A program made the position numbers and the translations under genes. The notes under the pieces are model-generated. The model saw only the letters and a program-made list of their open reading frames with translations, was not told the origin of the DNA and searched no databases. Of a stretch of DNA of 10,889 nucleotides, positions 1 through 10,889 are shown in pieces (within the stretch, counting starts at the first letter, position 1; every line of letters starts with the position of its first letter). Source of the stretch: Bacteroidaceae bacterium (GTDB lineage: Bacteria; Bacteroidota; Bacteroidia; Bacteroidales; Bacteroidaceae); NCBI GenBank assembly GCA_017557475.1, contig JAFYYO010000190.1:1-10889 (forward strand). Direction: 5' to 3'.

Positions 1-3000
1 CCGCCACTTGTCATGGGATTGATGGCGAAACTGGTGCCGAGAGGAGTGATTCCGATTTGCTCGGGCTCTTCCTCCTCGTCATCTGCATCGAAGTATTCAC
101 GGTCGCCAACTACGAGGAGGACAGGTTGACCGGCTTCTGCCTGCTCAATCTTGTTAAAGGTATAATGTGCTGTGCTGTCGGTTTCGCTGATGGCACCTTG
201 ATAAGCATAAATCTCAGCATCGGTTACAGAGAAAGCAGTGGGGTAGCACATGAAGATGATGCTGTTGGGTTTAGCATTCATTAGAGCGCTTTCGGCCACT
301 TCCTCTCCTTCGTCGAAATCTCTTTCGTCAATGGGCTCAATGTAGAGTGCACTGTTGCTGCTTACTACATCATTGTTCCATGTGACGAGGCTATGTCCTG
401 CGTTCTGTGCATGAAGATAGACGGGTTCGGTGTAGTAACCTTGTCCCTTGAGGTTGCGTGCCTCGATGACGACTTTGCCATAACCGACGGCTCGCACATT
501 GAAGAGAGCAGGAGTGAAACCGAGTGTCAGGTTCGTACTGCGGGAAGCACCGCCCAGGTAGAGTCCGCTCTTATGTTGGATGACGTAAGCCGTGTCGCCT
601 TGTGCCACGAAGCGGAAGGCAACCTGATCCATCTCTGGAATCTCCTCTTCATTGATAAAGCGTACTGCTTGCCCGTATATTACCTCCTCGAGAGACTCGA
701 AGCCTACAAGCGCACCTTCTTCCACATTGGCAGGAGCAGCATAGTTGTTGTAGAGGTCACCAAGGTCGTTGTTGATGGCGGGAGTCTTGCTCCACTGGTG
801 TGCCTCGTAGTTCTCCTCACTATCGAACTTGAGAGCGTACCACTTGCCAGGATCGACGGGATTGGCAAGAGCCATGAGATCACTAACTCCACTTGTAATG
901 GCTTCGACATAAGCATCAATCTGAGCTTGTGTATAAGCGCCTCCCTTGAGGTAGGCAGTTGCTTCCTGCAGGGTCGTAGTCAGTGTGCTGACGTCGCTAT
1001 TGGGGCTCCAGAAGCCAGGATTGTCGCCGATGGCAACCAGATTGATGATGTCCTTGTTTGCTTCAATAGCAGTAGCAAGAGCGGTCGGGTCAACAAGGAG
1101 AGCCTTGAAAGCATCGAGAGCATCCTTCAGAGCATTGTAGTCTTCCATCTCCACTTCGTCCAAGTCTACCTCCTTTGCAGTATTGAGCGCAGCCTCGACA
1201 GCAGTTGCGACATCGCCCATCTGACTCCATTGCGTGTTGCCATCGTAGGTAAGTCGATAGAGTTGGAAGGTCGCGAAGTGACCATAGCCACGCCCTGTCG
1301 TTGTCCCGTCAATGTAGAAACGGAGGTACTGATAGCCTTCTCCATAGTCAAGACCATTGGAATAGACGGTCAAGCTTGCTGATGCGTTCTGCGACAAGTC
1401 GTAGGTGCCGAGTTCGTTCCACCCGTCTTCGCTTGTATTTTCGAGAGCATTAGCGTTGTTTGAGCCAAAGACACCAAGCTTTGTGATGTGGTCGTTGGCG
1501 GCATTACGACGGCGCATGAAACTCTGGATGATTCCTCCGAGGGGTTCGTTGAAGGTTACTTGGAAGTAGTGTGTATGGTTCGAAACGTTGCCATTGCTCC
1601 AGTTGCTGTGCCAGAAAGTGTCGGCGTTGTCATTGAGGACATTGCCAAAGCTGCCCTCCGTGGGCTCTGTCCAGGGACTGCTGAACTGCAGGGTGTCGGT
1701 GATGAGCCCTGTGCTGCGTTCGGTTATATATGAGATGTCCTGTGCCTGAGCGATGGCTGCTTCTGTTTCAGAGATAAGGTCTTGGAACATTGAGACGAGG
1801 AGTTCGTGGTCTTTAATCGGGGCGTATGCATTGACGAGTTTTGCTACTTCTTCGTCGCTGACAGGCTCGAGAATCCATTGACTTGCTCCTGCACCGGCTT
1901 CCCAACCTACGATGTTACTTCCTGTGCCTGAGCCACCGCCGTGATTGTTGCAGTGTAGGAAACCGTAATTACCGCGTTGGCTGGGTTTCATGGCTACGAC
2001 AATCTTTTCGTTTCTGCGCTCGATGAACTCGAACTTCATTTCCGTCTGGCTGTTTGTGGTCAAGGTAGCTTGAGTGCTTTGCGAGCAGTCGTTCAGGATG
2101 CCGTCAGTCGCGATGTTCATCATTTGGAGGAGTCCCGTCTCGGCATTGTTGGTCAGCTTCCAGAGGTAGCGGCAGTCGGTGCTGTCGATATTAGCCCACA
2201 TAGCCTTGCCTTCGAGGGTGGCATACATGGCTTTGGTGGGATGGATGGTGGTCTCCTGATAGATGGGTTGGCCATTCTCGTCGAGTTCTCCGGTATTGAT
2301 GCGTGCTGTGTTTGTCCACTCCAAAGCGCTGACGATTCGATAGTTGCCGTCGGCTATGGTAAGTGTTACAAGCGAGGCCATGATAGCGGCATAGCCTTCT
2401 TCTATATTTTGGATGATGGCATCGATTGCTTCCACTGTGAAGTCTTCTATGTCAACTTCTTCGAAGAGTATATCATGCGCTAACTGCAAGTTCGTGATGA
2501 AGAGGTCGTAGTCTTCGTCGCTACAGTTGTATTGCCCGATTTCCGTGCCACGGTCGATTGTTAGGTTGCCGAAGTTGGGCACATAGTCTTCGTATTTGCT
2601 GTAACATGAGTTGAGTCGTGCAAGTGCTGCGGTTAGGTCTGCCACTTCTTCAACTGTGGCGGTGTAGATGGTTAGACGGCGTGAGCCAGCCACTCCGCCA
2701 CTCCATGTAACTGGTTTAATGCCGCTGTAGCTCATGTCGATGTATTGGCCAGAAGCATTCTTGAAGCCGACTTCGTCTCCGTTTATTTCAATTGTGAAGT
2801 AGGCGGGACTGTCTTGCATCTTGACATTACCGCCATTGCTGGTGCCTTCGATGCAGATGTAGCGCCCTGTCATGTAGTTCTTGGCTGCATAACCATTGTC
2901 GCTAATCTCGAAGGTCCAGACATACTTCATGTTTTCTATACCAGTGGGAATCTCGGATCCTTCTGTAGCAGCGAGGGCTCCGTTGTTGTCATAGAGCCAG

Positions 3001-3170
3001 GAGATAATGTTGTCGTGCTGAGCATTTCCTTGAATAACGTAAAGTTTGTCCGCTTGTGGAGCGGTCACCACGTCGCCGTATCCTGTCAGACTCAGTTCGT
3101 CAGCCAGCATGGGGACGGCTGTCAGGCACATGAGAATCACGGTGATAAGAGAGGTAATTTTCTTTTTCAT
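1..3170 (-). CDS. Large secreted multidomain protein with lectin-like and discoidin-like modules (C-terminal end outside window)
   Basis: An uninterrupted minus-strand frame runs from the ATG at 3170 to the left edge (1056 codons, no stop), so the gene is partial. The N-terminus MKKKITSLITVILMCLTA is a clear signal peptide, with cleavage likely after residue 23 (VPMLA/DE); that fixes the start. By eye, residues ~25-165 and ~270-437 look like beta-trefoil/ricin-like modules (runs such as NYMTGRYICIEG and GLLQMMNIATDG). Residues ~490-638 resemble an F5/8 type C (discoidin) domain: a loop around DNADTFWHSNWS, then FMRRRNAANDHITKLGVFGS, then YQYLRFYI. Residues ~771-951 form another lectin-like beta module (HKSGLYLGGASRSTNLTLGF). 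Helical linkers separate the modules. An acidic DADDEEEEPEQ stretch lies near the left edge. The likely role is surface or extracellular binding of glycans or proteins; no catalytic domain is visible. Several long plus-strand frames here are antisense shadows. The frame is certain, the domain names only moderately so. Confidence 0.9.
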   Translation of the reverse strand, partial: MKKKITSLITVILMCLTAVPMLADELSLTGYGDVVTAPQADKLYVIQGNAQHDNIISWLYDNNGALAATEGSEIPTGIENMKYVWTFEISDNGYAAKNYMTGRYICIEGTSNGGNVKMQDSPAYFTIEINGDEVGFKNASGQYIDMSYSGIKPVTWSGGVAGSRRLTIYTATVEEVADLTAALARLNSCYSKYEDYVPNFGNLTIDRGTEIGQYNCSDEDYDLFITNLQLAHDILFEEVDIEDFTVEAIDAIIQNIEEGYAAIMASLVTLTIADGNYRIVSALEWTNTARINTGELDENGQPIYQETTIHPTKAMYATLEGKAMWANIDSTDCRYLWKLTNNAETGLLQMMNIATDGILNDCSQSTQATLTTNSQTEMKFEFIERRNEKIVVAMKPSQRGNYGFLHCNNHGGGSGTGSNIVGWEAGAGASQWILEPVSDEEVAKLVNAYAPIKDHELLVSMFQDLISETEAAIAQAQDISYITERSTGLITDTLQFSSPWTEPTEGSFGNVLNDNADTFWHSNWSNGNVSNHTHYFQVTFNEPLGGIIQSFMRRRNAANDHITKLGVFGSNNANALENTSEDGWNELGTYDLSQNASASLTVYSNGLDYGEGYQYLRFYIDGTTTGRGYGHFATFQLYRLTYDGNTQWSQMGDVATAVEAALNTAKEVDLDEVEMEDYNALKDALDAFKALLVDPTALATAIEANKDIINLVAIGDNPGFWSPNSDVSTLTTTLQEATAYLKGGAYTQAQIDAYVEAITSGVSDLMALANPVDPGKWYALKFDSEENYEAHQWSKTPAINNDLGDLYNNYAAPANVEEGALVGFESLEEVIYGQAVRFINEEEIPEMDQVAFRFVAQGDTAYVIQHKSGLYLGGASRSTNLTLGFTPALFNVRAVGYGKVVIEARNLKGQGYYTEPVYLHAQNAGHSLVTWNNDVVSSNSALYIEPIDERDFDEGEEVAESALMNAKPNSIIFMCYPTAFSVTDAEIYAYQGAISETDSTAHYTFNKIEQAEAGQPVLLVVGDREYFDADDEEEEPEQIGITPLGTSFAINPMTSG

Positions 3171-3326: not shown

Positions 3327-3366
3327 AAAAAGAAAGGCGTGCTCCTGTAAAAAAGGGAACACGCCT
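3327..3366 (-). terminator. Intrinsic terminator of the COG0523 GTPase gene
   Basis: Read on the minus strand, AGGCGTG TTCC is followed by a ten-base loop and then GGAG CACGCCT. This gives an 11-bp stem with one G-U pair. The U-rich tract TTCTTTTTG follows directly. On the plus strand there is no T tract after the stem, so it works only in the minus direction. It lies 128 bp past the GTPase stop codon. Its 5' arm is the start of the next 22-bp repeat copy (CGTG) plus the last bases of the final full repeat unit, so array and terminator overlap. Confidence 0.85.
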
Positions 3367-3451
3367 AGTTCGTCAACTAGCCACGCCTAATTCGTCAACT
3401 AGCCACGCCTAATTCGTCAACTAGCCACGTCTAGTTTGGCAACTAGCCACG
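3364..3451 (-). repeat. Array 1: four contiguous 22-bp repeats in the 3' region of the GTPase gene
   Basis: Four head-to-tail units occupy 3430-3451, 3408-3429, 3386-3407 and 3364-3385 (minus-strand order), with no spacers. Each begins CGTGGCTAGTT and ends in AACTAGA, AATTAGG or AACTAGG. Units 2 and 3 are identical, unit 4 differs from them at one base, and unit 1 differs in the middle (GCCA in place of GACG). The inner CTAGTT/AACTAG halves are inverted copies around four bases, so each unit can form a small hairpin. A partial fifth copy (CGTG) becomes the 5' arm of the terminator. The same unit recurs at 8097-8184. Confidence 0.92.
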
Positions 3452-3477
3452 CTGTGTTTTCTGATGCTTTGTGCTGG

Positions 3478-3490
3478 CCTGATTATCAGG
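3478..3490. repeat. 13-bp perfect palindrome just after the GTPase stop codon
   Basis: CCTGAT and ATCAGG are inverted copies around one T, beginning 4 bp beyond the TAA (3494-3496) of the minus-strand GTPase gene. There is no T tract after it, so it is not a terminator by itself. It may be chance, or part of a structured 3' UTR that continues into array 1. Confidence 0.5.
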
Positions 3491-3493
3491 GCG

Positions 3494-4726
3494 TTATTCG
3501 ACGAGGCAAGCGTCGAGTAGGGTAGTGATAGCTTCCTTGTCGAGATGCTGACCAATAAACACCAACTTCTGCATCCTATCACCGTAAGTCTCGTCCCAAT
3601 CACGGCGAAGGTTGGGATCGCGCTGTTTCATCATCTCCAACTCGGCTGCAGGCATTGTGGCATACCATTGCCCGACATTTTGTAACTTCACCTGTTTTCC
3701 GGCCTGCTCGAACAGGTAGCAGACGTCCTCTTCGCCCTTGAAGTAGCAGATTCCCTTTGCTCGGATGATGCCTTTCGGCCAGAGTCGAGCCACGAACTGA
3801 TCAAACTCGCTGAGGCGCATAGGCTTCCGTCGATAGTAGACAAATGTGCCGATGCCGTACTCCTCGGCTTCTCCTTCGTCGTGGTCGTGGTGGTGATGAT
3901 GGTGTTCATGCTCATGATGATGGTGTTCGTGCTCGTGCTCGTGATGATGTTCATGCTCGTGTTCGTCGTCATCATCATCGTCGTCTTCGTCGTGATGGTC
4001 TTCCAGCTCTGCAATCCATGTTGCGCTGGTTGCCACCTTCTCATAGTCGAAGAGGTTGGTGTTCAGTAGTTTGTCGAGTTCCACGTCGCCGTAATTACAG
4101 TCGATAATCTGTGCCTTCTTCTGTATTCCTCTTACGATTTGTCGGATGCGCTCCAGTTCGTGTGGCTCCACGTCGGCAGCCTTGTTGAGCAGGACGATGT
4201 TGCAGAACTCAATCTGCTGGATGACGAGATTCTCGATGTCCTCCTCGTCGATGTCCTTCTTGGTGAGGTCGGAGCCGCAATCGAACTCGTCCTTCAGCCT
4301 CAAGGCATCAACGACGGTGACGATGCAATCGACGTATGGCAGGCCGTTTTGCGTGACTTCGGGAGCCATCTGCGCCATCGAGCAAATCGTCTGCGCAATA
4401 GGTTCAGGTTCGCAGATGCCGCTTGCCTCGATGACGATGTAGTCGAACTTCTTGAGCGCGATGATGTCGTAGAGTTGTTGCACCAAGTCCATCTTGAGCG
4501 TGCAACAGATGCAACCGTTCTGCAGAGCGACTAAACTGTCGTCCTGACCCCCGACGATCCCGCCTTTCTGAATCAGGTCGGCATCGATGTTGACCTCTCC
4601 TATGTCGTTGACAATCACAGCGAAGCGGATGCCTTGACGGTTCGAGAGAATGCGGTTCAGGAGTGTAGTCTTGCCGCTTCCCAGGTAACCTGTGAGCAGC
4701 AGAACAGGGATATCGTATTTCGTCAT
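3494..4726 (-). CDS. COG0523 (CobW/HypB/UreG-type) metal-handling GTPase with a long His-rich linker
   Basis: A 410-residue cytoplasmic G3E-family P-loop GTPase. Visible motifs are the Walker A GYLGSGKTT at 13-21, the metal-binding CxCC motif GCICC at 71-75, the conserved ASGICEPEP at 101-109, and a guanine-specificity region LLNKAADV at 179-186. The last departs from the usual NKxD because an extra-looking Ala occupies the Asp position. A linker at ~244-283 carries 21 His in 40 residues plus a run of seven Asp. The C-terminal CobW_C-like domain follows (~294-408: GTFVYYRRKPMRLSEF ... LVFIGQHLDKEAI). The family moves or inserts metals, commonly zinc, into client proteins using GTP. I chose the start MTKYDIPVLLL because it directly precedes the P-loop strand; an in-frame ATG 63 bp upstream would place the promoter -7 box inside the gene. 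It is transcribed alone and divergently from the exported glutaminase-like gene. The metal and client protein are unknown. Confidence 0.95.
   Translation of the reverse strand: MTKYDIPVLLLTGYLGSGKTTLLNRILSNRQGIRFAVIVNDIGEVNIDADLIQKGGIVGGQDDSLVALQNGCICCTLKMDLVQQLYDIIALKKFDYIVIEASGICEPEPIAQTICSMAQMAPEVTQNGLPYVDCIVTVVDALRLKDEFDCGSDLTKKDIDEEDIENLVIQQIEFCNIVLLNKAADVEPHELERIRQIVRGIQKKAQIIDCNYGDVELDKLLNTNLFDYEKVATSATWIAELEDHHDEDDDDDDDEHEHEHHHEHEHEHHHHEHEHHHHHHDHDEGEAEEYGIGTFVYYRRKPMRLSEFDQFVARLWPKGIIRAKGICYFKGEEDVCYLFEQAGKQVKLQNVGQWYATMPAAELEMMKQRDPNLRRDWDETYGDRMQKLVFIGQHLDKEAITTLLDACLVE
3878..3997 (-). repeat. Low-complexity His/Asp/Glu codon tract within the GTPase
   Basis: The DNA here is a GTG/ATG/CTC-rich quasi-repeat (plus-strand view) encoding alternating His and Glu with a preceding Asp run. 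It encodes residues 244-283 of the GTPase, between the G domain and the C-terminal domain. Histidine-rich insertions at this place are a known feature of many COG0523 proteins and bind divalent metal. Such tracts slip easily in replication, so the length probably varies between strains. Confidence 0.9.
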
Positions 4727-4755
4727 AGCGTTTGTGTGTTTGAGTTTAACGCCTG

Positions 4756-4790
4756 CAAAGTTACGAAAAAAGCGCAACATAAGATACAAA
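4756..4790 (-). promoter_or_regulatory. Promoter of the COG0523 GTPase gene
   Basis: On the minus strand the -7 element TAACTTTG lies at 4756-4763, matching the Bacteroidetes TAnnTTTG consensus. A candidate -33 TTTG lies at 4787-4790, with 23 bp between TTG and the -7 box, slightly longer than the usual ~19-21. Transcription would begin near 4749, leaving a leader of about 23 nt before the ATG at 4726. This supports the shorter start for the GTPase. The leader has no Shine-Dalgarno site, as is normal for the group. Confidence 0.7.
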
Positions 4791-4825
4791 TAATATAATA
4801 ATGTATGTTTTTCCTTGTCTTAACG

Positions 4826-4855
4826 TTGCGGATTGCAAAGAAAGTGTTAACTTTG
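4826..4855 (+). promoter_or_regulatory. Promoter of the glutaminase-like gene
   Basis: TTG at 4826-4828, a spacer of exactly 19 bp, then TAACTTTG at 4848-4855: a near-ideal Bacteroidetes sigma-ABfr promoter. The -7 octamer is identical to that of the divergent GTPase promoter. The start would be near 4862, giving an A-rich leader of about 34 nt to the ATG at 4896. GCAAAG at 4835-4840 and CTTTGC at 4851-4856 are inverted copies spanning the -7 box; this may be an operator or a by-product of the consensus. Confidence 0.8.
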
Positions 4856-4895
4856 CACGCACTTAGCAATAAATCACAAAACACATAAAAACGAA

Positions 4896-7800
4896 ATGCG
4901 CAAGACTTTACTCCTGCTCGCTGCCTTCCTCGCAGCCACTTTCATGCAGGCTCAGACGCCTGATTACTTTGTTCCTTACAAGCAGACATCGCTTCGTCTG
5001 CCCAGCGTTCCCTTGCTTGTCAACGACCCGTACTTTTCCTTCTGGTCGCCTTACAACAAGCTTACCGATGGAACCACCAAGCATTGGGACGACCAGCAGA
5101 AAGCAATGGACGGCCTGCTTCGTGTGGATGGGAAGGTCTATCGCTTCATGGGAGCACAGCGCAAGACGAAGCTCCTTGCCATCGCACCTATGGGTAACAA
5201 GGGCGGATATACTGCCAAAGTGCGTACCAGTCTGACTTCCGCTATGACGGACACCTGGATGAATCTCGGCATCTCGGAAAGCTCATGGCAGACACAAACG
5301 GGTCCTTGGGGTACGCAGAACGAGTATCCTTACATCCAGACCCCTTGGGGAGGCGACAATACAGACCGTTATATCCGCCGTCATGTCACGCTTACTGCGG
5401 ATGACCTGAAGGGCGACTTGTGGATTATCTACTCCCACGATGACAAATGCGAAGTGTATGTCAATGGCGTGCAAATCGTTGCAACCGAAGTCACATGGAA
5501 GCAAAATGTCAGGGTTCACCTGACTGGAGCAGCCAAAGCATCACTTGTAGAGGGCGACAACGTCATTGCTTTCCACGTCCATAACACAAATGGAGGCGCT
5601 CAGGCAGACATCGGTCTCTACAAGAACGACTTGGGATTCCATCCCGGATATCGTGCCATCAACGGTGCCGCAATGGCAGACGAAGGCGCTTGGGAAGCAA
5701 AGGTCAAGATGACAACCACAAGTGGAACGACCTGGACGACAGAATCCTTTAACGACGACTCCTGGCAGACTCAGCAAGGAGCCTTCGGTTCAGCTGGCGA
5801 ATATCCCAATGTCAATACCTCTTGGACCGCGACTGGCAGCGACATATACATTCGCAGATACATCACTCTGACTGCCGAAGACTTGCAGAAGAACTTGACT
5901 TTGATCTATTCGCATGATGATGTCTGTCAGGCTTATATCAATGGACGCAAGGTGGTTGAAACAGGAAACACGTGGGTGCAGAACGTCATCTATAATCTCA
6001 CCGAAGCCGACAAGGCCGTTCTTCACGAAGGTCAGAACGTGATTGCCTATCATGTCCATAACACTACAGGCGGTGCCTTGGCCGACATCGGCCTTTATAC
6101 AAGCATAACTGGCGAGACTCTGGCAACGCAGAAGAAATGCTATGTCCTGCCCACCAGCACTTACTATTTCTTCACTTGTGGTGGAGTTGATCTCGATTTG
6201 GTGTTTACTGCGCCCTTCCTTATGGATGACATCGAGTTGATGTCGACGCCCATCAACTACATCTCATATCAGGTGAAAGCCAATGACGGGCAGGAGCACG
6301 ACGTCCAGTTCTACTTCGGAACAACCCCGGAACTGACGGTCGATAACAACAGTCAGCCAACTGTGACGACAATCGAGACAAGTGGTGGACGCCAGTACAT
6401 CAAGAGTGGCAGCCGAGATCAGAAGGTTCTGGGCAAGGCTGGAGACTTGATTACCATCGACTGGGGCTACCTCTATCTGCCCGACATAAATGGCTCGGTG
6501 GCTGTCGCAGACCAGGATCTCACAGCTACGACCTTTGCAAGTACGGGCCAACTGCCGGCAAGCACAACTCCTTTCACCAGTACCGAAGAAGGAGAAATGC
6601 CGCAGCTCTCGTTCGTGCACGACTTCGGCACCGTCAGTCAGGCCAGCAGCTACATGATGTTTGGCTATGATGAAATCTACGACATGCGCTACATGAGTAC
6701 CAACTACAAAGGCTATTGGGCTCGCAACGGCAAGACCATTCAGCAGGCTTTTGCTGAGTTTCAGGAGAACTATGACGACATCATGACTCGATGCAAAGTG
6801 CAGGATCAGATTATCTACGATGACGGCTTTGCTTCCGGAAATGCCAAGTATGCCGAACTTCTCTGCGCATCTTATCGTCACTGCATCGCCGCACATAAGA
6901 TCTTCGAAGACAACAAGGGCAATCTTCTCTTCTTCTCGAAGGAGAACAACTCAAACGGATGCGTCAACACAGTTGACCTCACCTATCCTTCAGCCCCGCT
7001 CTTCCTACTCTACAACACAGAGCTGATGAAGGGTATGTGCACTTCCATCCTCGATTATTGCGAGAGCAGCAAATGGGGATTCGACTTCGCTGCCCACGAC
7101 TTGGGTACTTATCCACATGCCAACGGGCAGGTCTATGCCATCACAAAGCCTGATGCCAACGGCGGCTTTGGCGGCAACATGCCTATCGAAGAGAGTGCCA
7201 ACATCGTCATCCTGGCTGCCGCTATCTCCAACATAGACGGCAATACCAACTGGGCAAACCGCTACTGGGGGACGCTCACGAAGTGGGCCAACTATCTCGT
7301 AGAGAACGGACAAGACCCGGAGAACCAGCTCTGCACGGACGACTTCGCAGGTCATCTGGCTCATAATGCCAACCTTGCCGTCAAGGCCATCATGGGTGTG
7401 GCAGGCTATGCTATGCTCTGTTTCCAGCGAGGCGAACGGGACAATTATGAGACTTACCTGGCTAAGGCAAAGGAAATGGCTACCAATTGGGTGACGCTCG
7501 CCAAGGACGGCAATCACTACAAGCTGGCTTATGACAAGCCCGACACTTGGAGCCAGAAGTACAACATGGTGTGGGATAAGGCTTGGAAAACAGGTCTCTT
7601 CTCCGATCAGGTCAAGAATCAGGAGTACAGCTACTATATGGGCAAACTCAATACATACGGTCTGCCTCTCGATAGTCGTGCCGGTTACACCAAGAGCGAC
7701 TGGGAGATGTGGACGGCGGCTCTGGCCAGTACCAACGCTCGCTTCCGGAGTATTTCCGATCTTGTCTGGAAGTATGTCAATCAGACGGGTTCCAGAGTGC

Positions 7801-8072
7801 CTCTCTCAGACTGGTACGACACGAATGGCGGCGGCATGTGTGCCTTTCGTGCCCGCAGTGTCGTGGGCGGACACTGGATGAAAGTCTATGTGGATAAGAA
7901 ACTCTCAGGCGAGATAGGCACAGCCATTACTCCCATCCGGGCTCAGGAAGAGACTCATGACCAATGGGCAACGTTCAGTGGCCAGTGGTTTAATCTCAGT
8001 GGTCAAAAGGTGGATGCTCCTGCTCAGAAAGGCATCTACATCAAGGACGGAAAGAAGCAAGTCGTACGATAA
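4896..8072 (+). CDS. Exported glutaminase A-like protein (DUF4964-DUF5127-DUF4965-DUF1793) with a duplicated beta-sandwich module
   Basis: 1058 residues. MRKTLLLLAAFLAATFMQAQ is a signal peptide (cleavage after residue ~20), and the promoter 40 bp upstream agrees with this start. Residues ~22-95 match the DUF4964 type (SLRLPSVPLLVNDPYFSFWS ... DGTTKHW ... VYRFMG). Two tandem beta-sandwich modules follow (~97-243 and ~258-402). Then come a DUF5127/GtaA N-terminal-like region (~410-605, TYYFFTCGGVDLDLVFTAPF), a DUF4965-like part (~615-775, ILDYCESSKWGFDFAAHDLG, GNMPIEESANIVIL) and a DUF1793-like alpha-helical part (~785-995, DDFAGHLAHNANLAVKAI). The founding relative is Aspergillus GtaA, a secreted glutaminase. 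The Bacteroidetes members are mostly uncharacterised, so glutamine hydrolysis is a family label, not a shown activity; the helical-barrel fold would also suit a glycan-active enzyme. The last ~28 residues (WFNLSGQKV ... GIYIKDGKK) resemble the short C-terminal tail of exported Prevotella proteins. It is monocistronic, ending in a repeat array and terminator. Confidence 0.93.
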   Translation: MRKTLLLLAAFLAATFMQAQTPDYFVPYKQTSLRLPSVPLLVNDPYFSFWSPYNKLTDGTTKHWDDQQKAMDGLLRVDGKVYRFMGAQRKTKLLAIAPMGNKGGYTAKVRTSLTSAMTDTWMNLGISESSWQTQTGPWGTQNEYPYIQTPWGGDNTDRYIRRHVTLTADDLKGDLWIIYSHDDKCEVYVNGVQIVATEVTWKQNVRVHLTGAAKASLVEGDNVIAFHVHNTNGGAQADIGLYKNDLGFHPGYRAINGAAMADEGAWEAKVKMTTTSGTTWTTESFNDDSWQTQQGAFGSAGEYPNVNTSWTATGSDIYIRRYITLTAEDLQKNLTLIYSHDDVCQAYINGRKVVETGNTWVQNVIYNLTEADKAVLHEGQNVIAYHVHNTTGGALADIGLYTSITGETLATQKKCYVLPTSTYYFFTCGGVDLDLVFTAPFLMDDIELMSTPINYISYQVKANDGQEHDVQFYFGTTPELTVDNNSQPTVTTIETSGGRQYIKSGSRDQKVLGKAGDLITIDWGYLYLPDINGSVAVADQDLTATTFASTGQLPASTTPFTSTEEGEMPQLSFVHDFGTVSQASSYMMFGYDEIYDMRYMSTNYKGYWARNGKTIQQAFAEFQENYDDIMTRCKVQDQIIYDDGFASGNAKYAELLCASYRHCIAAHKIFEDNKGNLLFFSKENNSNGCVNTVDLTYPSAPLFLLYNTELMKGMCTSILDYCESSKWGFDFAAHDLGTYPHANGQVYAITKPDANGGFGGNMPIEESANIVILAAAISNIDGNTNWANRYWGTLTKWANYLVENGQDPENQLCTDDFAGHLAHNANLAVKAIMGVAGYAMLCFQRGERDNYETYLAKAKEMATNWVTLAKDGNHYKLAYDKPDTWSQKYNMVWDKAWKTGLFSDQVKNQEYSYYMGKLNTYGLPLDSRAGYTKSDWEMWTAALASTNARFRSISDLVWKYVNQTGSRVPLSDWYDTNGGGMCAFRARSVVGGHWMKVYVDKKLSGEIGTAITPIRAQEETHDQWATFSGQWFNLSGQKVDAPAQKGIYIKDGKKQVVR
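5184..6101 (+). repeat. In-gene tandem duplication of a beta-sandwich (jelly-roll-like) module
   Basis: Residues ~97-243 and ~258-402 of the glutaminase-like protein are homologous. Both open with a similar stretch (APMGNKGGYTAKV versus AAMADEGAWEAKV). Both contain SWQTQ.G..G...EYP and YIRR..TLTA.DL, then IYSHDD.C..Y.NG, and end NVIA.HVHNT.GGA.ADIGLY. By eye, about 54 of 85 aligned residues are identical in the second half, without gaps. The fold resembles the sugar-binding beta-sandwich seen in GH2-type enzymes. One copy at this position appears usual for the Bacteroidetes family members I recall; two is the odd part. Confidence 0.88.
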
Positions 8073-8096
8073 GAATAATCTGGTCTTTCAACTAGG

Positions 8097-8184
8097 CACG
8101 GCTAGTTGGCAAACTAGACGTGGCTAATCGGCAAACTAGACGTGCCTAATTGAGCAACTAGACGTGGCTAGTTTGCAAACTAAC
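8097..8184 (+). repeat. Array 2: four contiguous 22-bp repeats in the 3' region of the glutaminase-like gene
   Basis: Units lie at 8097-8118, 8119-8140, 8141-8162 and 8163-8184, preceded by a partial copy (CAACTAGG, 8089-8096). They follow the stop codon at 8072 by 24 bp and precede the terminator at 8196. The consensus, CGTGGCTAGTT then GGCA then AACTAGA, is that of array 1 read in the direction of its own upstream gene. The copies here are more diverged from each other than those of array 1. The last unit plus CCACG (8163-8189) makes an almost perfect 26-bp dyad with the core TAGTTTGCAAACTA. Confidence 0.92.
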
Positions 8185-8195
8185 CACGGAGTATC

Positions 8196-8228
8196 AGACA
8201 AGTCTCCTTTTCGAGGCTTGTCTTTTTT
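8196..8228 (+). terminator. Intrinsic terminator of the glutaminase-like gene
   Basis: AGACAAGTCTC pairs with GAGGCTTGTCT (11 bp, one G-U pair) around a CTTTTC loop, followed directly by a run of Ts (8223-8228). It lies 12 bp after the last unit of repeat array 2 and separates the glutaminase-like gene from the next promoter. On the minus strand no comparable T tract follows the stem, so I call it for the plus strand only. Confidence 0.92.
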
Positions 8229-8407: not shown

Positions 8408-10889
8408 ATGAAAAGAACAAAACTACTAACATTGCTTGCTGCAGCTATGATGCTGTTCGGCTTGCAGAGCGCCAATGCGTTCACGCTCACATGTCTGAGA
8501 GGTTCCGACTTTGGTGGTGATGAAGGTTGCGAGAAACTCTTCGATGGCACACAAGGCACCAAGTGGGGCTCATGGGAAGGATGGTATGGAGGTGGACGTC
8601 TTCCTTGGACCGTCTTCAAGGCAGCACTCCCCATCGCAGCTACTTCTTACGAACTGGTAATCGCTAACGACACCCCGGGTAGTCCTGGCCGTAACTGGAA
8701 GAAGTGGAAGATCTATGCCGGTAACTTCGAATCCGATGCCGCTGCTACCAAGGATGCTGCAGGATGGGTATTGATCGACCAGAAAGACGAGGTGATGGAC
8801 CCAGGTACGGAAAATAACTCGTTCAATGTGATTTCCTTTAATCTTTCAGATCCTCAAACCACGTATTATTCTTATTACAAGATTGTCGTTGAAGAACTTG
8901 TTGGAGGTTGGGGCGAATATTGTCAGATGGACGAGTTCCGCTTCAAGGACTATACGGTAGACACCTCAGGTGCTCAGCAATATGTTGACTTCGACTACAC
9001 CACAGGCGTGGATGCTGACCTTAAGGATGCTTATGCTAGTAAACTGGTTGCCCTTAATGCCGCAATAGCAACAAATGATCCTGACCAAATCGTTCCAGCT
9101 GTGGAAGACATCATGCCAATCTATACTGAGATTGTTACGCTTCGCGAAGGCAATTTCATCGCCCTTGATTGGACAGCTTGTTGGGGTGACGGTCCTGGCT
9201 CGAACCTCGTGGACAAGAATGACTACACTAAGTGGGGCGGTAACTTCCCAGAAGGAGAGGGCGTGGAGCACGTTCAGTATGTAGTATTCCGTACTCCTGC
9301 TCAGCAGCCATACTTCTATAAGCTTGTGACTGGCGGTGATACGCAAACTCAGAATAAACGTAACTGGAAGACTTGGAAGGTCTTCGGCGGTAACTTCGCT
9401 ACAGAAGCTGAGGCAACTCGCAGCGCAGAAGGCTGGGTAGTGCTCGATGATAGAGAAGACATCAGCACAGATTACCTGCCCAACAAGAATAACTACCCCG
9501 CTACTTTGAAGTTTACCAATGGCGTGTCAGAAGCTTACTCTTATTATAAGGTAGAGGTTTATGCTTCTGGAGGCAGCCAGCAGCAGATGTCCGAAATATA
9601 CCTCTGCACACAAGAAGAATTCGAGGCAATACGTCAGCCGCTGATTGACGGCTTGGCAGAGTTCGCCGCAGGCTTGGATGACCTGGTAGTTGAAGCTGAT
9701 AAGGCAGCCGACAAGGAAACCTTCGCAGCAAAGTATGAAACTTTGAAGACCACGACCGATGCTGATCAGTTGACAATCCTCTACAACGAGTTGGTAGCCT
9801 TGAAGGATGCTCTTGAGAAGTCTGCAGCCTTCGTCGCTGGTGACAATTGTGTTGCTCTTGATGGCTCTGCTTGTTGGGGCGATGGTCATTATTCACAGTT
9901 GGTTGACGGAAATGTCAATACCAAGTGGGGCGGTGGCATACCCGATGGTGGTGCATACGTTATCTTTAGGGCATACGAAGCCAAGTCGTTCAACCAGTAC
10001 ATGCTTGTAACAGGTAACGATACTGGCAATGGTGGCGGCGTTCGCAACTGGAAGACCTGGAAGATCTATGGCGTAGCTGGTAAGGTTACCGACGAAACTG
10101 CTACACGCGAAAATAGTTCATGGACGTTGCTCGACTCTAAGGAAAATATCGGTCAGGACCGTCTGCCTGCTGCAAACTTCGCTCCTGCATTCTTCAACTT
10201 CAGCGAGGAATGGACAAAGAGCTACAAGTACTTCAAGATTGAGGTAGAGGCCGCATACAACGGTAGTGCTATCCAGATGTCAGAGTACAAGATGCTCACC
10301 GACGACGAGTATGCAGCTTATCGTCAGGAATATGTTGACTCTCTGCAGAAGGTCGGCCAAGCTGTTCTTGCTGAGTTCGCAGGCGTAAGCATTCCTGAGG
10401 CATTGCAGGCCCAAATCGTAGCTACCGCAACAGCTAAGATTACTGCAGTGGCAGGTGCAACCGCAGACAATCTGCTTCCTCTGTTTAATGCAGCTCTGGC
10501 ATACATCACTCAGGAGGCTCCTGCTCTTGTAGCTGCTTCCCAAATCGAACAAGTAGATGGTGTATATCAGATTGCAAATGCTATGCAGCTGGCAAGCTTC
10601 GCTTCATTGGTTAATGCAGGCGAGAGCGATGCAGATGCAGTCGTTACTGCTGACCTCGACCTCTCTGAGGTAATCACCAATAATGCATGGACTTCTATTG
10701 GTTCGAAGGCTAAGCCCTACACGGGTACATTTGATGGCCAAGGCTTTACTATTAAGAATATCACTTACACAGCAACAGGTGAGTACAATGGTTTGTTCGG
10801 TAAGTTGTCTACTGGCGCAGTAGTTAAGAACTTCACTGCAGAAGGTACGATGACTGTTTCTACAGGCGTTCAAAACCGTGCAGTCGCTC
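8408..10889 (+). CDS. Large secreted protein with three tandem discoidin-like domains and a GLUG-type beta-helix (C-terminal end outside window)
   Basis: An open frame from the ATG at 8408 runs 827 codons to the right edge without a stop, so it is partial. MKRTKLLTLLAAAMMLFGLQSANA is a signal peptide cleaved near residue 24. Three F5/8 type C (discoidin/galactose-binding)-like domains follow at ~25-180, ~250-399 and ~481-630. Each has a loop of the form LFDG/LVDKN/LVDGN...TKWG, a RNWK(K/T)WK(I/V)(Y/F) strand (Arg95, Arg318, Arg546), a GW.(L/V)(L/I)D or SWTLLD turn, and a YYK(I/V).V/YFKIEV strand followed by (Q)QMSE or QMDE. Helical linkers join them. From ~718 a GLUG-type repeat begins (YQIANAMQLASFASLV ... 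GTFDGQGFTIKNI ... NGLFGKLSTGAVVKNFTAEG), a beta-helix seen in surface adhesins and some M26 peptidase-associated proteins. The likely role is extracellular binding, perhaps adhesion to glycans. A catalytic domain could lie beyond the edge. Confidence 0.92.
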   Translation, partial: MKRTKLLTLLAAAMMLFGLQSANAFTLTCLRGSDFGGDEGCEKLFDGTQGTKWGSWEGWYGGGRLPWTVFKAALPIAATSYELVIANDTPGSPGRNWKKWKIYAGNFESDAAATKDAAGWVLIDQKDEVMDPGTENNSFNVISFNLSDPQTTYYSYYKIVVEELVGGWGEYCQMDEFRFKDYTVDTSGAQQYVDFDYTTGVDADLKDAYASKLVALNAAIATNDPDQIVPAVEDIMPIYTEIVTLREGNFIALDWTACWGDGPGSNLVDKNDYTKWGGNFPEGEGVEHVQYVVFRTPAQQPYFYKLVTGGDTQTQNKRNWKTWKVFGGNFATEAEATRSAEGWVVLDDREDISTDYLPNKNNYPATLKFTNGVSEAYSYYKVEVYASGGSQQQMSEIYLCTQEEFEAIRQPLIDGLAEFAAGLDDLVVEADKAADKETFAAKYETLKTTTDADQLTILYNELVALKDALEKSAAFVAGDNCVALDGSACWGDGHYSQLVDGNVNTKWGGGIPDGGAYVIFRAYEAKSFNQYMLVTGNDTGNGGGVRNWKTWKIYGVAGKVTDETATRENSSWTLLDSKENIGQDRLPAANFAPAFFNFSEEWTKSYKYFKIEVEAAYNGSAIQMSEYKMLTDDEYAAYRQEYVDSLQKVGQAVLAEFAGVSIPEALQAQIVATATAKITAVAGATADNLLPLFNAALAYITQEAPALVAASQIEQVDGVYQIANAMQLASFASLVNAGESDADAVVTADLDLSEVITNNAWTSIGSKAKPYTGTFDGQGFTIKNITYTATGEYNGLFGKLSTGAVVKNFTAEGTMTVSTGVQNRAVA
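8480..10297 (+). repeat. Triplicated discoidin-like domain within the secreted protein
   Basis: Three copies of a ~150-residue domain spaced about 225 residues apart (Arg of the RNWK motif at 95, 318 and 546). The similarity shows in DNA too: each copy has CG(T/C)AACTGGAAGA followed by TGGAAG. Copies 2 and 3 are closest (ALD.(T/S)ACWGDG, TKWGG, RNWKTWK). Copy 1 is more divergent and lacks the ACWGDG start, having CLRGSDFGGDEG instead. Confidence 0.85.

Follow-up and report, generated by a model that had tools for sequence, protein, structure and literature searches.

RESULTS

Two 22-bp repeat arrays follow unrelated genes.

The window (the whole stretch of DNA that was analyzed, 10,889 nucleotides) carries a CobW/HypB/UreG GTPase gene on the minus strand (3494 to 4726) and a gene for a GtaA-type glutaminase-like protein on the plus strand (4896 to 8072). 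Each is followed by a short tandem array, array A 35 bp after the stop of the CobW gene and array B 17 bp after the stop of the GtaA-type gene. The CobW protein has a long His/Asp-rich stretch between its two domains (window 3894 to 3993) that is likely metal binding. Two long proteins with signal-peptide-like starts are encoded at 3 to 3170 on the minus strand and at 8408 to 10888 on the plus strand; neither had a Pfam match at an E value of 0.001.

An earlier note on this DNA had described two arrays of one 22-bp unit downstream of unrelated genes, and we confirmed them with Tandem Repeats Finder, which reported period 22 with 4.2 copies and 91% matches at 3360 to 3452 (array A) and period 22 with 3.8 copies at 8100 to 8182 (array B). 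The clearest unit of both arrays is an 18-bp imperfect palindrome, AAYTAG-NC[RY]GN-CTARTT, with a 4-bp spacer. The count of exactly four full copies was close; read as palindrome plus spacer, each array has five units, with degenerate ones at the outside. Array A (3353 to 3458, minus strand; GTGGCTAGTTGCCAAACTAGAC.. when read on that strand) has 18-bp palindromes at 3353 to 3370, 3375 to 3392, 3397 to 3414, 3419 to 3436, and 3441 to 3458, of which the inner three are well conserved and both outer ones are degenerate. Its 4-bp spacers in the minus-strand reading are GCCA, GACG, GACG, and GACG. Array B has the same layout on the plus strand (8090 to 8195), with palindromes at 8090 to 8107, 8112 to 8129, 8134 to 8151, 8156 to 8173, and 8178 to 8195 and spacers GGCA, GGCA, GAGC, and TGCA; only its last unit is degenerate. 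The spacers thus differ both within and between the arrays (cgtc, tgcc, ggca, gagc, and others).

A terminator had also been proposed after both arrays. For array B this was correct, as a consensus scan placed an intrinsic terminator directly after it (8196 to 8223, plus strand). The same scan found no terminator after array A, where the sequence and fold give a terminator-like hairpin followed by a T-rich stretch (3336 to 3366, minus strand) that overlaps the outermost unit. At the site of array B in two related genomes (G001 and G025), we found a different array followed, as judged by eye, by a terminator-like hairpin with a T run. The claim that both arrays have the same orientation holds as a statement about the majority of units: in the sense of the upstream gene, the center is CGTG in 5 of 5 units of array A and in 3 of 5 units of array B.

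We found that array A folds better on the sense strand than on the antisense strand (z, −2.7 versus −0.95). Array B folds into one long nested hairpin, and its minus strand is the more stable (z, −4.8 for the plus strand and −8.7 for the minus strand). An Rfam scan of the window gave two subthreshold matches, neither at the arrays. No array matched above the gathering score, in agreement with the earlier statement that no described family was recognized, and an Rfam-type structured RNA was set aside.

The AACTAG units are dispersed among Bacteroidales genomes.

We scanned a two-unit AACTAG pattern against a genome collection of 84,980 species and obtained 32 stretches, 31 of them in nine Bacteroidales metagenome-assembled genomes (G001 to G009), several of which have rumen, reticulum, or cecum isolate names. 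The remaining stretch comes from a Saprospiraceae record and seems to be a lone inverted repeat. Exact single units number from 2 to 54 per genome in these nine other genomes, and the suggestion that the element is dispersed was right. The unit pattern read backward gave no matches in the same nine genomes, which were reached because they bear the repeat. The genus of G002 is represented by 139 genomes, and 10 of them have the strict AACTAG pattern. In a set made up of the window and the loci retrieved to that point, there were 43 distinct arrays, with four units in 22, five in 12, three in 4, six in 3, two in 1, and one in 1. A phage or plasmid origin was rejected on the lack of matches to array A among phages or plasmids in a blastn search and of matches to four repeat patterns among viral contigs.

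The window arrays belong to a wider class of period-22 arrays.

The best match to the window CobW protein among the 139 genomes is in G003 (97% identity); the window GtaA-type gene is only about 79% identical to its G003 match. The region downstream of the CobW gene was readable at 28 loci: 7 (L051, L053, L055, L057, L071, L072, and L074) have a period-22 array of other sequence, and the remaining 21 have none at the threshold used. Because of these arrays of other sequence, we scanned by period rather than by sequence.

In a G003 sample of 392,302 bases (20 stretches, of which 18 are contig starts and two were placed over known loci), there were 47 places at period 22, 30 at the harmonic 44, and 0 to 3 at any other period from 12 to 43. 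Period 21 (2 × 10.5) had 1 place and was not enriched. With a lower threshold and periods from 5 to 119, period 22 gave 53 places and period 7 gave 26; many 7-bp tandem runs are present in this sample (L081 to L100). Of the 106 gaps that are 100 bp or longer, 35 contain arrays, and arrays make up 11% of the intergenic bases. We found no period-22 arrays in five replicates of dinucleotide-shuffled G003 sequence or in 150 kb of Escherichia coli K-12. The unit sequences differ (AACTAGGC.., AACTTAAC.., GC-rich units, TTAAAT..TCATGA.., and TTGCA..TACATGTA.., for example), and many unit families have the layout AA..C[RY]G..TT in common. Within 3.6 kb of one G003 stretch (L083, 12895 to 16463) lie seven period-22 arrays of different unit families.

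Samples of 30 to 80 kb from other genomes of the genus gave 4 period-22 arrays in G059, 7 in G040, 2 in G072, 7 in G056, 3 in G057, 3 in G106, and 4 in G002. In samples this small the excess of period 22 is not always clear (G040 has 7 places at 22 and 6 at 21; G106 has 3 at 22, 4 at 21, and 6 at 14). None was found in 30- to 52-kb samples of G007, G047, and G013; G007 has AACTAG units elsewhere in its genome, outside the array-free sample. Beyond the genus list, we sampled 400 kb from 11 other members of the family and found 16 period-22 arrays in 7 of these genomes; the next period besides the harmonic 44 was 33, with 5 places, all in G161. This genome has arrays with a direct period of 11 bp, exactly half of 22 (AAGGTACGGGG and AAGATAGTAGG; L334, 3777 to 4415 and from 17212). 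A further 120 kb from G193 and G227 gave 7 period-22 arrays. On one G193 contig (C1, 1,796,408 bases; L319, L320, L340, L341, and L343), several of the period-22 arrays have GCAC..GTGC units. The window arrays are one sequence family within a larger class of intergenic arrays in rumen Prevotella-like bacteria, and the AACTAG sequence is one of many interchangeable unit sequences, which is invisible from the window alone.

Arrays prefer gene ends without a fixed orientation.

We classified array positions after calling genes by a simple longest-ORF rule. The 43 AACTAG arrays lie mostly in tandem (22) or convergent (16) gaps, with 4 in divergent gaps and 1 at a contig edge, and the upstream stop is the nearer one in 16 of the 22 tandem cases. 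The expected preference for gene ends is thus present in this family. The G003 sample has 50 arrays (26 tandem, 8 convergent, 9 divergent, 4 in called ORFs, and 3 at edges) in sequence whose gaps of at least 100 bp are 57 tandem, 20 convergent, and 29 divergent; in this mostly array-blind sample, the 9 of 50 arrays between divergent genes are about what the gaps predict. Across all families we pooled 243 distinct arrays, which are not independent, were partly chosen by family, and count orthologous sites more than once: 118 are tandem, 54 convergent, and 36 divergent, with 20 in ORF calls and 15 at edges. The upstream stop is nearer in 91 of the 118 tandem arrays.

The earlier note had suggested a 3′-UTR element whose transcript hairpins affect RNA decay, termination, or protein binding. 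Such an element would explain why AACTAG arrays prefer gene ends and why tandem arrays lie closer to the upstream stop, yet 36 of the 208 gap-classified arrays are between divergent genes. It would also agree with the sense-strand folds of both window arrays and with the terminators behind array B and behind the arrays that occupy its site in G001 and G025. However, the antisense strand folds better in 72 of the 118 tandem arrays and the sense strand in 46, array B itself is more stable on its antisense strand, and G.U mismatches on the sense strand are no commoner than A.C mismatches (233 versus 272). Orientation to the upstream gene, which had been thought to be fixed, is one way in 11 of the 22 tandem AACTAG arrays, opposite in 8, and neutral in 3. 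Neither a fixed orientation nor sense-strand pairing as a rule was found, and we consider a 3′-UTR RNA element very unlikely. Our reading is that the constraint is at the DNA level and that insertion is tolerated at gene ends.

Geometry is common to all families.

The core length of the 243 distinct arrays has a median of 104 bp (quartiles, 96 to 117). Direct matches within the arrays peak at 22, 44, and 66 only, and palindrome axes are spaced mainly 11, 22, 33, 44, and 55 bp apart and seldom otherwise. An array is therefore an alternating string of inverted 11-bp half-sites. The mean palindromy of the G003 arrays is 0.62, compared with 0.51 for column-permuted arrays. Because only 22 of the 50 G003 arrays exceed all 40 permutations, palindromy is common, not universal. 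What all families have in common is the geometry, about five imperfect palindromes with dyad axes 11 bp apart; period and axis spacing are strict, and the unit sequence is not.

Strict spacing across unrelated sequences could mean that a dimeric protein, such as a nucleoid protein or gyrase, docks at the arrays and reads shape and helical phase, not bases. The 11-bp half-sites would then face the same side of underwound DNA, and the roughly 110 bp of an array would be the footprint. The narrow array length, mismatches without strand bias, the frequent position at gene ends, and the 11-bp direct arrays of G161 are all consistent with this. Several orthologous sites, however, have no array, as do the samples of G007, G047, and G013 described above, and the period of 21 that would correspond to 2 × 10.5 bp is not enriched in G003. 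A sequence-blind protein would also leave unexplained the identical cassettes at several places that we describe below. Docking sites of this kind seem rather unlikely to us.

Sister genomes carry different units, cassettes, and arrays at one site.

The window B site was readable in nine sister genomes (in G063, the matched stretch ends before the site). Six of them (G025, G059, G009, G001, G006, and G036) have arrays of other or mixed units, with best period-22 scores of 34 to 42 of 44. G003 and G005 have other palindromic sequence below threshold (scores of 27 and 20), and G093 has no array (score of 15). At a second site (L095), we found three TTAAAT units in G003, one TTGCA unit with a similar right-hand flank in G005, three units of a third family in G006, and a GC-rich array in G025; 5 of the 8 other genomes compared with G003 have no array there. 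At a third (L091, array 1), the G003 array is kept in G005 and G036, G006 has another family, G025 and G059 have no array, and G063 was not recovered. In array 3 of the same locus, G005 is one unit short of G003, a difference that also fits ordinary unequal exchange. A single site can thus differ from one sister genome to the next in its units, in its three-unit cassettes, or in its whole array.

Many places have cassettes of three inner units, and outer units flank either 1 or 3 inner 22-bp units. Of the 38 distinct three-unit cassettes, 4 are found in identical form at more than one place of a genome; G003 and G036 have two such cassettes each. One of these is at four G036 places, two of which have similar flanks, and a fifth cassette is common to G003 and G005, at what looks like one site. 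Identical cassettes stand in different surroundings. The families are unevenly distributed: two-unit TTAAAT matches number 36 in G003, 2 in G005, and 0 in 8 other genomes, and two-unit TTGCA matches number 156 in G036 and 0 to 45 in nine other genomes.

Roughly half of the junctions of cassettes lie at the midpoint of a 4-bp spacer between outer units, so that the 22-bp register is kept. Fewer than half of the cassettes (21 of 44) obey a flank rule, (G/A)TTnn-cassette-nnAA(C/T). The junctions of cassettes showed no target-site duplication of the kind that flanks a MITE insertion, and the flanking dinucleotides usually differ between left and right (CG..TC, for example). G005 has an extra stretch of 4.9 kb beside one array site that we read as a possible carrier element; no recombinase was recognized among its ORFs by eye. 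Also in G005, three tandem paralogues with a common N-terminal domain (L250, 11687 to 13682) lie beside an array site in a stretch that is absent from G003.

Units are imperfect, and the TTGCA family shows nested pairing.

The earlier note had read the retained inverted halves of the unit as a sign of selection for RNA or DNA structure. We found that complementarity within a unit is avoided, not favored, at the variable TTGCA dinucleotides and at the AACTAG center. In 38 distinct TTGCA cassettes, a set taken from retrieved loci and the G005 listing and not from every TTGCA match, the two variable dinucleotides are complementary within the unit in 0 of 114 units. Between units 1 and 3, L1-R3 is complementary in 17 of 38 cassettes and R1-L3 in 24 of 38, compared with about 7.9 and 6.4 expected from shuffling with random orientation. 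When the set was thinned to 22 dissimilar cassettes, the counts were 8 and 12 (null, 3.6 and 3.0), with 0 of 66 within units; thinning to 11 mutually dissimilar cassettes left significance for R1-L3 alone. None of 74 distinct AACTAG units is a perfect palindrome, each having 1 to 4 mismatched pairs of 9. Their center is self-complementary in 5, versus 36.5 expected, and the other two variable symmetric positions show a weak trend only.

For the TTAAAT family, we used 13 triplets, three of which have an off-core-pattern unit, and excluded two-unit places. The middle unit agrees with the other families (self-complementary in 0, versus 5.1 expected). The first and third units allow self-complementarity (4 of 13 each), and there is no pairing between units 1 and 3 (L1-R3 in 1 of 13, versus 5.2 expected). 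Selection for a nested hairpin is thus supported in the TTGCA family and not in the TTAAAT family. For the 122 of the 243 arrays that passed our filters, we compared the fold of the native unit order with the folds of permuted orders. The native order was better than the mean of the permutations in 79 arrays, with a median z of −0.46, and at or below all 20 permutations in 21; the effect of unit order on folding is modest. The 5′ arm pairs better with its own 3′ arm in 173 cases and with the arm across the spacer in 153, with 74 ties (127 of 216 arrays). Own-arm and across-spacer pairing are equally good, and therefore neither local hairpin is preferred.

These data bear on whether the arrays are neutral satellite-like repeats, in which an ancestral 22-bp array spread and diverged and was homogenized by slippage, unequal exchange, and gene conversion. 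The one-unit difference between close genomes, the many arrays with homogeneous inner and degenerate outer units, and the layout AA..C[RY]G..TT common to many families are in line with such a history. Neutral repeats would not, however, be expected to have a narrow array length, to avoid perfect palindromes, to show nested complementarity between units 1 and 3 in the TTGCA family, or to be present as three-unit cassettes at many sites. We judge a neutral satellite unlikely.

DISCUSSION

The earlier interpretation of the window arrays is only in part borne out. We think it about an even chance that they are modular dispersed DNA elements of which an enzyme moves whole units. Each is about 110 bp long and is composed of some five imperfect 22-bp palindromes, themselves pairs of inverted 11-bp half-sites. 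The substrate of the putative enzyme would be the paired half-sites, probably in the form of an imperfect hairpin that is extruded or single stranded, and the enzyme would insert or swap whole 22-bp units there. Selection would keep the units imperfect, such that the long nested hairpin beats local ones. Because insertions are presumably not tolerated in promoters or coding sequence, those that persist would lie mainly downstream of genes. In favor of a modular element are the strict period and axis spacing, the turnover at single sites, the lineage-specific abundance of unit families, the identical cassettes at separate places, the nested pairing of TTGCA cassettes, and the modest folding advantage of native unit order. 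Counting against a modular element, no enzyme for the movement of arrays was found, and cassettes could also be spread by gene conversion from one array to another. The lack of target-site duplications, the limited reach of the flank rule, the TTAAAT triplets, and the incomplete palindromy of the G003 arrays weigh against it as well.

More tentatively, and with some doubt, the arrays may constitute a genome-wide class of intergenic DNA that is defined by geometry, in which sequence is swapped as cassettes and symmetry, spacing, unit number, and imperfection are kept. Dispersed repeat families are usually found and named by sequence, and the sequence pattern used here sees only fragments of what is present (10 of 139 genomes); the period search finds arrays in one-third of the longer G003 gaps. 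If geometry is the conserved feature, these bacteria of the gut and rumen contain something that gauges a length of 11 or 22 bp independently of the bases. If a class defined by geometry does exist, it would imply machinery for recombination or binding, as yet undescribed, that responds to shape and phase and extends through the GTDB family to which these genomes belong. Because sister species vary naturally, the mechanism can be tested directly.

Several known systems resemble the arrays in part. Plasmid origins carry iteron arrays, which consist of a small number of helically phased repeats of about 22 bp. Unlike these, the arrays described here are chromosomal, palindromic, and present in many copies, and neither gene upstream of the window arrays is a replication gene. 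Integron attC sites are imperfect inverted repeats that are recognized by structure, with sequence free to vary; compared by description, the present arrays differ in their 22-bp tandem architecture and in having no gene cassettes between units. CRISPR arrays have repeats with unique spacers of about 20 to 40 bp, and the spacers here are 4 bp, so this candidate was rejected.

In the parts of the open literature available to us, including PMC4060949, we recognized no description of period-22 arrays, although absence there is not absence from print. According to the accessible part of its description, BOX of Streptococcus pneumoniae is a short interspersed composite repeat of outer modules and a variable number of tandem inner modules that is predicted to fold, and BOX repeats have been proposed to be parasitic mobile elements (PMC3049150). 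On that account, the period-22 arrays are like BOX in having outer units around a variable number of tandem inner units. They differ from it, as far as the two can be compared by description, in that the module is 22 bp (with 11-bp half-sites), modules from separate arrays have no sequence in common, and the cassettes at a single site vary in sequence from species to species (PMC3049150).

The REP/BIME repeats of the GTAG and CGTC superfamilies are, in the accessible part of their description, short intergenic palindromes with many copies and a bias to positions downstream of genes (PMC3733652). The period-22 arrays are likewise short, intergenic, imperfectly palindromic, and present in many copies per genome. 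As judged from the same text, they differ in lacking a constant GTAG or CGTC tag at one end, in having spacers that vary, and in forming strict 22-bp tandem arrays instead of inverted pairs (PMC3733652). We found a Y1_Tnp (PF01797) match in 4 of 10 array-bearing genomes and none in 6 of 10, which are metagenome assemblies, where absence is not proof. We examined the flanks of 4 of the 14 Y1_Tnp-matched places: one has an array about 700 bp from the Y1 gene (G036, L206), and the other three have no array by the period scan. Near the Y1 gene of G002, one of these three, there is an exact AACTAG unit at a distance of about 270 bp. A RAYT-driven REP was set aside, given the 6 of 10 array-bearing metagenome assemblies with no Y1 match. 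The best reading of these comparisons is that the element may work in the way that BOX or REP/BIME repeats do, as a matter of likeness and not of demonstrated membership.
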